A stretch of DNA of 64,000 nucleotides. Origin: a bacterium. Lineage in GTDB: Bacteria > Fibrobacterota > Fibrobacteria > UBA11236. The notes under the pieces are model-generated. The model saw only the letters and a list, made by a program, of their open reading frames with translations, was not told the DNA's origin and did not search any database. This document shows positions 18,792 to 50,959 of this stretch, piece by piece. The stretch's first letter is position 1. Every line of letters begins with the position of its first letter. A program made the translations under genes and the position numbers. The stretch is from positions 16,788 to 80,787 of the forward strand of contig OMJM01000062.1 of NCBI GenBank assembly GCA_900299345.1, given 5' to 3'.

Positions 18792-19856
18792 ATGACCGCT
18801 TTCGCGGAAACCATTGGCAATGCCCAGGATCTGGCTGAAAAAAGCCTTCAGGGCGAAGAATTATCGCGCGAAGAAGCGCTGGCTGTGCTCAACTGGCCGG
18901 ACGACGATGTATTGTCCTTGCTGCAAGCCGCGTTTCGCGTCCGCCAGACGTATTTCGGCAAGACTGTCAAACTGAACTTTCTGCTCAACGTGCAAAGCGG
19001 CATCTGCCCCGAGGATTGCGGTTACTGCTCCCAGTCCGCGATTTCCGACGCACCGGTGGACAAATACAAGTTGATGGGCGCCGAAGCCATCATGGAAGCC
19101 GCTGAGCGCGCCATCGCGAACAAGGCTACGCGCCTGTGCATGGTCGCCAGCATGCGTGGGCCCAGCGACAAGGATGTCGGCTCCGTGGCCGAAGCCGTGC
19201 GTCAGGTCAAGTCGCAATACCCGCAACTGGAACTGTGCGCCTGTCTGGGTCTGCTCAAGGACGGACAAGCGGAGACGTTGGAAGCCGCGGGCGTCGACGC
19301 CTACAACCACAACCTCAACACTTCGGAACGCCACTACGGGGAGATCTGCTCCACGCATGGCTTCACGGATCGGCTCGACACAGTGCGCAAGGTGCGCGAG
19401 GCGGGAATCTCCTCCTGCAGCGGTGCCTTGTTCGGCATGGGCGAAACCCATGACGACGTGCTGGAAGTGGCTTATCGTCTGCGCGAACTGCAGGTCGAAT
19501 CCATTCCGATCAATTTTCTCGTGCCCATCAAGGGAACGCCCATGGTCGCGCGAAAGGATCTCACGCCGGTGCAGTGTCTGAAAATTCTGTGCCTGTTCCG
19601 CTTGCTGAATCCCCGTTCGACCTTGCGCATCGCGGGAGGCCGCGAACTGCATTTGCGCGCGTTGCAGCCGCTGGGCCTGTACGCCGCCAATTCTTTGTTC
19701 GTGGGTGATTACCTCACGACCGAGGGACAGGCCGCGCATCTCGACATTGAGATGATTCGCGACATGGGCTTCGAGATCATCGGCGATGCACCGGTGGACA
19801 ATGCGCCTGAATCCCTTGCGGATCGCGTTCATTTCACCTCAAAGAAATCCCATTGA
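18792..19856 (+). CDS. bioB: Biotin synthase
   Basis: Radical SAM CxxxCxxC motif (GICPEDCGYCSQS), YNHNLNTSERHYGEICSTH, 'IAGGRELHLRALQPLGLYAANSLFVGDYLTTEGQ'. Confidence 0.97.
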   Translation: MTAFAETIGNAQDLAEKSLQGEELSREEALAVLNWPDDDVLSLLQAAFRVRQTYFGKTVKLNFLLNVQSGICPEDCGYCSQSAISDAPVDKYKLMGAEAIMEAAERAIANKATRLCMVASMRGPSDKDVGSVAEAVRQVKSQYPQLELCACLGLLKDGQAETLEAAGVDAYNHNLNTSERHYGEICSTHGFTDRLDTVRKVREAGISSCSGALFGMGETHDDVLEVAYRLRELQVESIPINFLVPIKGTPMVARKDLTPVQCLKILCLFRLLNPRSTLRIAGGRELHLRALQPLGLYAANSLFVGDYLTTEGQAAHLDIEMIRDMGFEIIGDAPVDNAPESLADRVHFTSKKSH

Positions 19857-19867
19857 TCCTCTGATTT

Positions 19868-19892
19868 GTACGGGCGGACGGCTGTCCGCCCC
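19868..19892. repeat. Copy 1 of palindromic element GTACGGGCGGACGGCTGTCCGCCCC (intergenic bioB-hisH)
   Basis: GGGCGGAC/GTCCGCCC 8-bp arms around GGCT; 23/25 identical to 33165-33189. Confidence 0.75.
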
Positions 19893-19918
19893 AACGTGAA
19901 CGGGCCGCAAAGAGATCC

Positions 19919-20539
19919 ATGATCGCCATCCTTGATTACAACGCCGGCAACCTGACCTCCGTGCAACTCGCCTTGCGCGAAACCGGACTGGATGCCGTGA
20001 TTACGCGTGATGCCAACGTCATCGCGGCGGCGGAGCGTTTGATCTTTCCCGGCGTGGGTGCGGCCGGTTCGGCCATGGAAGGCTTGCGAGAACTGAATCT
20101 GGAAAAAACCGTGCGCGACTTCGTCGCCACTGGAAAACCCTTTCTGGGAATCTGCATCGGCTGCCAGGTCATTCTTGAAACCAGTGAGGAAGACGGCGGC
20201 ACGTCCTGCCTTGGAATTTTTTCCGGCAGCGTGAAAGGCTTCAAGCCCGGCCCCGGAATCAAGGTTCCGCACATGGGCTGGAACCAGGTCCGCTTTGCGC
20301 GCAAGCATCCCGTGATCGACGGCATTCCCGACGGAGCGGAGTTTTATTTCGTGCACGGATTTTATCCCGCGCCCAAGGACAACGCGGTGGTTCTGGGTGA
20401 GACGGAGTACGGCGGCGTGAAATTTCCCTCGCTGATGGCGCGCAATAACGTGGTCGCTTGCCAGTTCCATGCGGAGAAAAGCGGACCGTACGGGTTGCGC
20501 CTGTTGAAAAACTTTTGTGCGTGGAACGGGAAGGCGTAA
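19919..20539 (+). CDS. hisH: Imidazole glycerol phosphate synthase subunit HisH
   Basis: MIAILDYNAGNLTSVQLAL...FPGVGAAGSAM...PFLGICIGCQVI...HMGWNQV...FVHGFY...CQFHAEKSG. Confidence 0.97.
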   Translation: MIAILDYNAGNLTSVQLALRETGLDAVITRDANVIAAAERLIFPGVGAAGSAMEGLRELNLEKTVRDFVATGKPFLGICIGCQVILETSEEDGGTSCLGIFSGSVKGFKPGPGIKVPHMGWNQVRFARKHPVIDGIPDGAEFYFVHGFYPAPKDNAVVLGETEYGGVKFPSLMARNNVVACQFHAEKSGPYGLRLLKNFCAWNGKA

Positions 20540-31298: not shown

Positions 31299-32927
31299 TT
31301 CTAGTGCTGCCTTGACCAGATTGTAAAACAGCGGCGAGGGATTGCGGAGGCTGCTGGTCAGCTCCGGATGGAACTGACTTCCCATGAAGTACTTGTGCCC
31401 TGGAAGTTCCATCACCTGCATGATGTTCTCCTCTGGATGCTTCCCGGAAAAGACGAGTCCCTTGGCTTCCAGCCGTTCGATGTAGTCCGGATTCACCTCA
31501 TAGCGATGACGGAAGCGTTCACGGATGACAGCCTGATCCCCGTAGATGGAATAAGCGCGGCTGCCGGGTTTGATCTGCACGTCGTGCCCGCCCAACCTCA
31601 TCGTGCCACCCTTTTGCAGCACGTTTTTCTGTCCCGGCAGAATATCGATCACCGGATGATCCACCACCACACCTTCCTCGCGCACTTCCGTGGTGTTGGC
31701 GCCTTGCAGTCCGCACACGTTGCGGGCGAACTCCACAACGGCCAGTTGCATGCCATAGCAAATGCCCAGATACGGCAGGCCTTTTTCGCGGGCGTGCTGG
31801 ATGACCCGCATCTTGCCCTCGATCCCGCGCTTGCCAAAACCACCGGGCACGATCACACCGTCTGAACCGTCCAACAAGGTCGCTGCGTCTTCCACGGTCG
31901 CAACCTTGGACGTATCCACCCACTTCAGGTTCACACGCACGTCGAGATGCGCCCCCGAATGCACCAGCGCTTCCACCACCGAGGCGTAGGAATCCTCCAG
32001 CGCCGTGTACTTGCCGCAAAGAGCAATAGTCACGGTGCGTGTCGGGTTCACGAGATTCTTCTTGATGTTGCGCACCCAGCCTTCCCACTGGCGGAGATCC
32101 GGCGGGGAGTAAATGCCTAGCGCGGAATGCAGGATGGCGGGCAGGCCTTCCTTCTCGTAGATCAACGGAATTTCATAGACGGTCTTCACGTCCGGGCCGG
32201 AGATGACATGGCTGGCGGGAATGTTGCAATAGGACCCGATCTTCTCCTTGATGGGCGGCGTCAGCATTTCCGGACAGCGGCCGATCACCACGTCGGGATC
32301 GATGCCCTTCTCGTTCAGCATGCGCACCGACATCTGGGTGGGTTTGCTCTTCTGCTCATTCACGCCTTCCGGAATCGGAACATAAGTGAGATGGATGTAG
32401 ATGATGTTCTCGTCACCCACGTCGCGCTTGAGCTGGCGGATGGCTTCGAGATAGAACTGGTTTTCCAAGTCACCCACCGTGCCACCCACTTCGATCAACA
32501 TCACGTCAGCTTCTTCCGCCTTGGCGATGTCGAAGAACCAGTGCTTGATGCTGTCGGTGACGTGCGGGATGAATTGCACGGTCTTTCCGAGATAATCACC
32601 GCGGCGTTCCTTCTCGAGGATGTTCTTGAACACCTTGCCCATGGTCAGGTTCCAGTGGAACTTGGTGGTGATTCCCATGAAGCGTTCATAGTGGCCGAAG
32701 TCCATGTCCACTTCGCCGCCGTCGTCGAGCACAAACACTTCGCCATGCTCAATGGGGTTCATGGTTCCGGGATCGGTGTTGAGGTAGCCGTCGCATTTCA
32801 CCGACACCACCTTCAACCTTCCCGAGAGAAGATTGCCGATGGAGGCGGCCGCAATGCCCTTGCCGAGTCCCGACAGCACGCCGCCGGTGACCACGATGTA
32901 TTTGCAACCCGAGGTGCGGTTTTTCAT
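31296..32927 (-). CDS. pyrG: CTP synthase
   Basis: KYIVVTGGVLSGLGKGIAAASIGNLL...DPGTMNPIEHGEVFVLDDGGEVDMDFGHYERF...GGFGKRGIEGKM..GICYGMQLAVVEFARNV. Confidence 0.98.
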   Translation of the reverse strand: MKNRTSGCKYIVVTGGVLSGLGKGIAAASIGNLLSGRLKVVSVKCDGYLNTDPGTMNPIEHGEVFVLDDGGEVDMDFGHYERFMGITTKFHWNLTMGKVFKNILEKERRGDYLGKTVQFIPHVTDSIKHWFFDIAKAEEADVMLIEVGGTVGDLENQFYLEAIRQLKRDVGDENIIYIHLTYVPIPEGVNEQKSKPTQMSVRMLNEKGIDPDVVIGRCPEMLTPPIKEKIGSYCNIPASHVISGPDVKTVYEIPLIYEKEGLPAILHSALGIYSPPDLRQWEGWVRNIKKNLVNPTRTVTIALCGKYTALEDSYASVVEALVHSGAHLDVRVNLKWVDTSKVATVEDAATLLDGSDGVIVPGGFGKRGIEGKMRVIQHAREKGLPYLGICYGMQLAVVEFARNVCGLQGANTTEVREEGVVVDHPVIDILPGQKNVLQKGGTMRLGGHDVQIKPGSRAYSIYGDQAVIRERFRHRYEVNPDYIERLEAKGLVFSGKHPEENIMQVMELPGHKYFMGSQFHPELTSSLRNPSPLFYNLVKAALE

Positions 32928-33661
32928 AAGGCTCCTTGCAAGGCCAGCGCTTCGAGACGCTGGCGGGCAAAAACAAGATCCGCAGGCGTGTCCACCGGTG
33001 CTCCCGGTTGCGACGCATGCGCACGGATGGGCGCGAGATTCAAATCGCGCAGAATTTCATGGGACTCTTCGACTTCACGTTTCGAGGACGGCAATGCGGC
33101 GTAACGCCGCAGGAAATTTTTGGAATAGGCGTATGCGCCCAGATGCAACCGCCACGCATTTTCCGTACGGGCGGACGGCCGTCCGTCCCGACAAAAATCC
33201 AATACAAATCCATTTGCATCCAATATCGCCTTGACGCGATTCGGATTTTCGAGATCTTGCTCGGAGGTTTCTTCTTCATGCACCAAGGTGTGCATCCATT
33301 CCGGATTTTGACACAAGGCTTCACGGAGAGTTTGCAATCCTTCGATGGGAAATGCGGGTTCATCGCCTTGAAGATTCACCACCAAATCCGATTCGATGGA
33401 GTCGAGATTGCGGGCAATGCGCTCGGTGCCATTCGCAGCATCGCCGGAAAGAATGAATCGATGCCCATACGCGGAAACCGTTTCTCCGATTTCGGAAGAA
33501 TCGGTCAAGCAAACAACTTCGGAAAAGCATCCAGCTTCCATGGCACGATCCAGCGCGTGCACCACCACGGGTTTTCCCAAAAGCGGCTTCAGCAGCTTAC
33601 CCGGAAAACGGGACGACCCGAGGCGGGCCGGAACCACGCAGGAAACATCGGCGTCGATCAT
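32924..33661 (-). CDS. kdsB: 3-deoxy-manno-octulosonate cytidylyltransferase (KdsB), carrying an in-frame palindromic element
   Basis: VVPARLGSSRFPGKLLKPLLGKPVVVHALDRA...LVVNLQGDEP...HLGAYAY...GAPVDTPADL; ATGA overlap with pyrG. The segment FCRDGRPSARTENAWR sits where KdsB normally has an FSRxxIPxxRD-type motif. Confidence 0.88.
   Translation of the reverse strand: MIDADVSCVVPARLGSSRFPGKLLKPLLGKPVVVHALDRAMEAGCFSEVVCLTDSSEIGETVSAYGHRFILSGDAANGTERIARNLDSIESDLVVNLQGDEPAFPIEGLQTLREALCQNPEWMHTLVHEEETSEQDLENPNRVKAILDANGFVLDFCRDGRPSARTENAWRLHLGAYAYSKNFLRRYAALPSSKREVEESHEILRDLNLAPIRAHASQPGAPVDTPADLVFARQRLEALALQGAL
33165..33189. repeat. Copy 2 of palindromic element GTACGGGCGGACGGCCGTCCGTCCC, inside kdsB
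   Basis: 23/25 identical to 19868-19892; encodes RDGRPSART on the kdsB strand. Confidence 0.75.
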
Positions 33662-47915: not shown

Positions 47916-48965
47916 ATGCACCACCTCAGCCGATGGATTCTTGCTGCCGCGATTCTCACCACAACCTGCGCCACCACACACGCACAAGTGAGCTGGACGG
48001 GGCGCACTTCAGGAACAACCAACACGTTGTTGGGAAATGTCTGGGCCAACAATCAGGTGGTAACCGTGGGGCAACAGGGTACCATTCTGACATCGCCCGA
48101 TGGAATCACTTGGACAAAACGGACATCAGGAACGACCAAGACCTTGACCACCGTGATCTGGACCGGCCCTTCGATAGGCTCAGGGGCCGGACAACTTGTG
48201 GCCGTGGGTGATTCCGGAACCATACTGACATCGTCCGATGGAATTACTTGGACGTCCCGTACTTCAGGGAGCTTGCGTGCGTTCGGTTCCGTCACCTGGA
48301 CCGGGAGCCAATTGGTCACGGTGGGGCAGCTCGGCACTATCCTCACATCACCTGATGGAATCGCCTGGACCTCACGCACCTCCGGTACCACGAGCTATCT
48401 CGGCGACGTGGGTTGGGGAAACAATCTGTTGGTGGCCACAGGAAACAACGGCACCCTAGTCACATCACCAGACGGCATCACTTGGACGACTCGCACTTCG
48501 GGAACTACACAGTCGATAACCGCCGTGGTGTGGATGGGAACTCAATGGGTTGTCAGTGGAACTTTTGGTGTGGTGTTTACTTCCCCGGATGGGACGACTT
48601 GGACTTCCCGCACGTCGGGAACTACGGTCACAATGTCCTCTCTGACATGGACAGGCAGCCAGTTGATCGCGGTTCCGGGTGGAGGAGGAACCGCCGAGAT
48701 CTATACGTCTCCCAACGGAATCAACTGGACGACACGGGTGTTGAGCGCGACCTTGTATTCCGTAGCATGGACTGGAACATTACTCGTGGGCGTGGGGGGG
48801 AACGGTACCATTCTGACATCACCGCAGACCACTGCGATTCTTCCACGAGCGCCCCTCCACCACACGGAAAACACAGGCTCATTCTATACTGTTTCGGGAA
48901 GAAAATTTCCGGGATATGGGACGCAGAATCCACACCAGCTTCCGTTGCTGTATCTCAAGAAATAG
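47916..48965 (+). CDS. Secreted seven-blade-like beta-propeller protein with C-terminal VSGRK tag
   Basis: Signal peptide; seven repeats of 'VxWTGxQLVxVGxxGTILTSPDGITWTxRTSGTT'; C-terminus SFYTVSGRKFPGYG. Confidence 0.85.
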   Translation: MHHLSRWILAAAILTTTCATTHAQVSWTGRTSGTTNTLLGNVWANNQVVTVGQQGTILTSPDGITWTKRTSGTTKTLTTVIWTGPSIGSGAGQLVAVGDSGTILTSSDGITWTSRTSGSLRAFGSVTWTGSQLVTVGQLGTILTSPDGIAWTSRTSGTTSYLGDVGWGNNLLVATGNNGTLVTSPDGITWTTRTSGTTQSITAVVWMGTQWVVSGTFGVVFTSPDGTTWTSRTSGTTVTMSSLTWTGSQLIAVPGGGGTAEIYTSPNGINWTTRVLSATLYSVAWTGTLLVGVGGNGTILTSPQTTAILPRAPLHHTENTGSFYTVSGRKFPGYGTQNPHQLPLLYLKK

Positions 48966-50918: not shown

Positions 50919-50959
50919 TCCCATGTCGGGGCAATCCTAGTGATTGCCCCGACATGGGA
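50919..50959. terminator. 18-bp perfect inverted repeat TCCCATGTCGGGGCAATC-CTAGT-GATTGCCCCGACATGGGA (terminator or REP-like)
   Basis: Perfect arms, 5-nt loop, followed on the minus strand by CGTTCTATTTTTG; downstream of the GH10 gene. Confidence 0.8.

Follow-up and report, generated by a model that had tools for sequence, protein, structure and literature searches.

The palindrome inside a kdsB-like gene is, with a probability that we put at roughly 0.7, one copy of a short, non-autonomous, GTAG-REP-like family whose sites were inherited and whose stems were later replaced. Under such a history a site and the sequence that fills it have separate ages, and core replacement becomes directly testable across three species. 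It bears on the unsettled question of how REP-like palindromes spread and how their in-gene copies persist.

Palindromes in the window

The 25-mer GTACGGGCGGACGGCCGTCCGTCCC lies at 33165-33189 of the window (the whole 64,000-nt stretch of DNA analysed), antisense to an intact kdsB-like ORF, and forms part of a full element with three unpaired positions (Table 1). On the minus strand the element is translated as (C)RDGRPSAR(T). The ORF stays open and reads ...VLDFCRDGRPSARTENAWRLHLGAYAY..., and all three frames of the element's sense strand are open. Pfam assigns the product to the cytidylyltransferases, and its best PDB matches are KdsB/CKS enzymes. The sequence-only reading had translated the palindrome in frame inside kdsB and had found the flanking family motifs intact. 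The sister copy that it had placed at 19868-19892 is likewise confirmed: it matches the kdsB 25-mer at 23 of 25 positions (two mismatches) and occupies the gap between a bioB-like ORF ending at 19856 and a hisH-like ORF starting at 19919 (both names from sequence alone, with no profile behind them). When the window was shuffled 100 times with its dinucleotides kept, no such match arose.

A third locus, at 50919-50959, is a long perfect palindrome with extended arms, GTCGGGGCAATCCTAGTGATTGCCCCGAC, and has a strong predicted hairpin (z -10.5). Judging by its GGGGC...GCCCC frame and its extended arms, it would seem to be another family relative.

Table 1. Palindromes and the kdsB-like gene in the window, and palindrome sites shared between species
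Feature	Position in window	Strand	Genomes	Description
kdsB palindrome	33165..33192	.		28 bp, core GGACGGCCGTCC; plus strand ends GTAC...CGAC
kdsB-like ORF (CMP-Kdo synthetase family)	32924..33661	-		245 codons; element in loop between beta strands
Sister palindrome GTACGGGCGGACGGCTGTCCGCCCCAAC	19868..19895	.		intergenic, between bioB-like and hisH-like ORFs
Third, longer palindrome GTCGGGGC-AATCCTAGTGATT-GCCCCGAC	about 50919..50959	.		locus-specific arms CCCAT/ATGGG and beyond
Shared site, kdsB			G000, G002, G003	
Shared site, murG 3' end			G000, G002, G003	
Shared site, murB 3' end			G000, G002, G003	G003 arms GTAAGGGCGCGAT, ATCGCGCCCTTAC 35 nt apart
Shared site, nosL fusion			G000, G002	same codon; cores GGACGGCCGTCC and GAGGCATGCCTC
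Shared site, queG			G002, G003	
Shared site, pseudouridine-synthase-like gene end			G000, G002	name from sequence only
Shared site, intergenic				L138/L177

A dispersed family with variable cores

The family consists of 27–29 bp palindromes of the form GTA[G/C]GGGC-core-GCCC[C/G]TAC. Pattern searches and fetched stretches together give about 25–30 copies in this genome (2.24 Mb) and up to 58 in one congener. About eight copies in this genome are of the GGGCGGACGGCCGTCCGCCC type, with small variations, and about 15–20 have other cores (GAACGGCCGTTC, GGATTTTAAATCC and GGGATTATCCC, among others) in the same frame, GTA[G/C]GGGCG...CGCCC[C/G]TAC. The kdsB palindrome had been proposed as one member of a dispersed family, a proposal that called for further genomic copies, and these exist. 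The pattern GTAGGGGC-N10-15-GCCCCTAC was found 17 times in this genome (G000) and 3, 58 and 27 times in the other genomes of the four-genome genus (G001, G002 and G003, respectively), with no occurrence in the sister genus. Across the phylum, at least one match was present in 41 of 168 genomes, and a reversed control matched one genome. A chance origin of the family is ruled out by the shuffles and these control patterns. Metagenomic viral contigs of IMG/VR frequently carry the motif as well, which is uninformative on mechanism.

In the symmetric copies (n = 74), GTAG pairs with CTAC, and beyond this pairing run locus-specific inverted arms that are 68% complementary over eight positions, versus 29% in re-dealt controls. 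At murB and murG the arms have a species-specific sequence and are complementary within each species. Complementary arms are missing from the sub-family to which the window copies belong (GGACGGCC core; ends GTAC/GTTG/GTCG). Inner mismatches, scored as G-U versus A-C by transcribed strand, were mostly transitions and, at n = 38, too few to orient. Reading the fetched sequences by eye, we saw after most symmetric copies no T-run of the sort that follows the GC-rich hairpin of an intrinsic terminator. Two copies with the GAACGGCCGTTC core stand at the extreme ends of G000 contigs (C26, 38606-38633 of 38635; C69, 7953-7972 of 7972); such contig-end palindromes may interrupt assembly or vary within the population.

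Sites shared between species

Site sharing was compared in G000, G002 and G003, at first from the flanking genes of all fetched copies and then among orthologues. At least seven sites are common to two or three of these species (kdsB, murB, murG, the nosL fusion, queG and two others), against about 0.04 coincident sites expected over the three genome pairs under random placement. L154 and L225 probably represent one further shared pair. Family copies are absent at the compared orthologous sites in G001 and the sister genus, and the murB and murG 3' ends are empty in G001 and the outgroups. At the murB 3' end of G003, the 35 nt between GTAAGGGCGCGAT and ATCGCGCCCTTAC hold another small hairpin, like a central insertion.

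Probable replacement of cores at fixed sites

At the shared sites every pair differs in its core, while the palindrome is kept in both copies. Both sides had changed at 37 of 47 differing core pair positions, with pairing in both copies, although these 37 double changes do not equal 37 independent events, since a whole core may change in one step. Identical cores were commoner between copies of one genome than between copies of different genomes: such pairs made up 27/325 within G000, 18/990 within G002 and 8/210 within G003; between genomes the values were 12/1170 (G000 versus G002), 2/546 and 8/945. In G000, GGACGGCCGTCC recurs at kdsB, nosL and L138, and GGATTTTAAATCC at both murB and murG, whereas in the other species no two of these sites have the core in common that they have in G000, each site being filled by a different one. 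Because such sharing of cores across loci of the same genome is not readily made by base-by-base compensation, we infer that cores were replaced at fixed sites, and the sites appear older than the sequences filling them.

The elements would have reached their sites ahead of the split into three species and would have been passed down with the gene; their stems would later have been replaced, and two or three amplified core types would account for most of the replacements in G000. A fuller version of this history holds that fixed sites in and beside essential genes, rather than sequences, were inherited through speciation, and that stems were overwritten by the lineage's spreading core type, the 12-bp core being exchanged between loci without a resident RAYT and the locus-specific arms being kept complementary; this version we advance tentatively, at somewhat less than even odds. 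The likely agent would be an HUH/RAYT-type transposase acting on single strands, or else template switching when the hairpin is replicated, and the complementary arms could reflect selection on the hairpin or, again, template switching. A profile search of G000–G003 found no gene with Y1_Tnp (PF01797), which counts against our reading; the Y1 transposase that would go with an IS200/IS605-derived MITE is missing on the same result. Y1 transposase genes do have GTAGGGGC hairpins nearby in three more distant genomes of the class (L078, L082 and L086). Another counterpoint to our reading is that exchange of a 12-bp core between loci is without a known mechanism here.

Each species might instead have gained its own element independently, the sites coinciding because they are permissive or favoured by structure, as gene ends and loops may be; we regard this as unlikely. 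Such hotspots would account for the different cores at every shared site, for kdsB offsets and phase that differ between species, and for the family's preference for gene ends, but they would hardly place the nosL elements at the same nucleotide and those of the murB and murG ends at the same place in three species. The flanks, moreover, are locus-specific and share no common target sequence, and fewer than 0.5 coincidences would be expected even if insertions were restricted to a tenth of the genome.

A comparable, low probability attaches to a selected RNA or DNA structure, that is, functional hairpins (for example, at mRNA 3' ends) in which compensatory mutations alter the stems without loss of pairing. 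The compensated double changes in cores and arms, the conservation of sites and the frequent position exactly at stop codons are all consistent with this; however, identical 12–13 bp cores occur at unrelated loci within a genome and not at orthologous loci, the in-gene copies in unrelated proteins suggest no single function, and G001 has few copies. We give very little credence to the idea that RDGRPSART is an ordinary KdsB loop with an accidental palindrome. GC-rich Arg, Gly and Pro codons favour such sequences, and a natural QueA motif fits the pattern too, yet the loop peptides of relatives are unrelated, and recurrence of the same DNA outside kdsB, both intergenically and in other genes and frames, refutes it.

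The element in the KdsB loop

The window's KdsB loop has 13 residues versus 11–12 in element-free relatives (the sister genus and G001), so that the element seems mostly to have replaced loop sequence, with a net gain of about 1–2 residues and no clean added insert. Loop length varies naturally from 11 to more than 20 residues. In G002 and G003 the loops also hold in-frame palindromes, with cores GAAAAATATTTC and GCCTCGCGAAGC, and the loop peptides of relatives are unrelated: the same peptide written in unrelated codons was not what we found, but different peptides from different palindromes. The kdsB site is probably the same across the three species, though not exactly, since the distances from the element to the flanking conserved codons differ (1, 18 and 28 nt on one side; 19, 14 and 13 nt on the other); the frame phase of the G002 element also differs.

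In the AlphaFold model of KdsB (mean pLDDT 93), the stretch that includes RDGRPSART, residues 158–168, is a coil flanked by two strands. Mean confidence is lowest, at 70, in the block 161–170, and the fold is otherwise intact. Arg158 is invariant in 13 of 13 aligned sequences, and its codon in the window lies inside the element. The sequence-only reading had seen here the remodelling of an essential enzyme; a variable surface loop with so small a net gain in an intact predicted fold does not support this. The element would be tolerated in kdsB because the loop is variable in length and the sense strand is open in three frames, and the most likely view is that it rides along neutrally and does not modify function.

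Copies inside genes and at stop codons

In-frame copies were found in G000 in kdsB, ileS, a penicillin-amidase-like gene and a nosL-like fusion, and in G002 in kdsB, the nosL fusion, queG, aroA, smc, dprA, priA and an hrpB-like helicase gene, which substantiates the earlier claim that the family enters genes in frame. The cleanest insertion case is queG, where nine extra codons in G002 correspond to the element GTAGGGGCGACCCATGGGTCGCCCCTAC and are missing from the G000 and sister-genus orthologues. G003 has a different queG element at most one codon from the G002 site, and G000 may keep an element remnant. When compared with PDB chains, the ileS element falls in a variable stretch with no clean gap, and this copy was tallied as in frame but excluded as a proven insertion; the alignment of aroA with PDB covers only the C-terminal half and is uninformative at the element. 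The G002 aroA product (L175) contains both VGAGFNPAPTGG and GRGDSRVAPTG, each a family-like peptide, which suggests two insertions in one gene. A QueA locus (L135) also matches the pattern and was discarded, its peptide LHVGAGTFRP being the natural QueA motif.

Symmetric copies often supply stop codons: 33 of the 74 contain the TAG that ends an upstream gene whose frame is open for 100 codons or more, versus about 9 expected from background GTAG sites. At the murG 3' end of G002 (L380), a 610-aa open frame has a single internal TAG, that of the element, and runs on through the palindrome. For annotation, peptides such as VGADGRPPV and VGAxxxxPL that recur in unrelated proteins should be treated with caution as translated repeats, not domains.

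Comparison with known repeats

The closest known kind is the GTAG-tagged REP super-family (Di Nocera et al. 2013, PMC3733652). These REPs are 20–40 bp dispersed palindromes of several phyla, with sub-families defined by complementary stem residues and an unpaired GTAG end; they often lie near gene ends, where they supply TAG stops, and intragenic in-frame copies are known, including in tRNA synthetase genes (PMC3733652). The present family shares with them the short dispersed palindromes, stem sub-families, terminal GTAG, in-gene units and TAG stops. It differs in that its GTAG pairs with CTAC and the pairing runs into locus-specific arms, in the ends of the window copies, which are GTAC and CGAC/CAAC (GTAC/GTTG/GTCG across their sub-family), and in its cross-species shared sites with swapped cores. 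Because the GTAG end is paired rather than unpaired and no Y1 transposase or RAYT was found in the genus, we do not file the family as a full member.

The sequence-only reading had likened the element to Rickettsia palindromic elements (RPEs; Ogata, Claverie). The likeness holds for in-frame insertion into conserved protein genes with the frame kept and fails for length and tag: long RPEs measure 105–146 bp (PMC2229807) and the short RPE-4/6 are CGTC repeats (PMC3733652), whereas the present element has 28 bp and no CGTC, so that "Rickettsia-type" stands as an analogy only. REPINs of Pseudomonas are also small, palindromic and non-autonomous, but they consist of two inverted REPs about 70–110 bp apart that move as a unit (Bertels and Rainey 2011, PMC3116915), unlike the single palindromes described here.

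Different repeat types at orthologous places have been reported before. Two Xanthomonas species have different REPs at about the same recB site (PMC3733652), and in the REP orthoswitch the REP class found at an orthologous place differs between related strains; this switch has been described where REPs flank RAYT genes, while copies elsewhere decay (Nunvar et al. 2013, PMC3686654). Here, by contrast, the switch affects ordinary sites, coding ones included, in genomes where no RAYT was detected. We know of no account of cores being replaced at many fixed sites of a genome from the open-access literature that we searched, where text matches to GTAGGGGC and GCCCCTAC were unrelated and nothing useful was returned for TAGAGACG or the element peptides. 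Repeats inside genes are a known kind, whereas the replacement of cores at sites that stay fixed has seemingly drawn little description.

Other repeats in the window

Two further repeat arrays of longer units occur in the window. At 779-2174 there are four to five tandem units of about 288 nt, 60–80% alike, which are probably repeated protein domains, and at 47973-48823 a direct repeat unit of 117–138 nt is present in seven copies with 62–77% identity to the reference.
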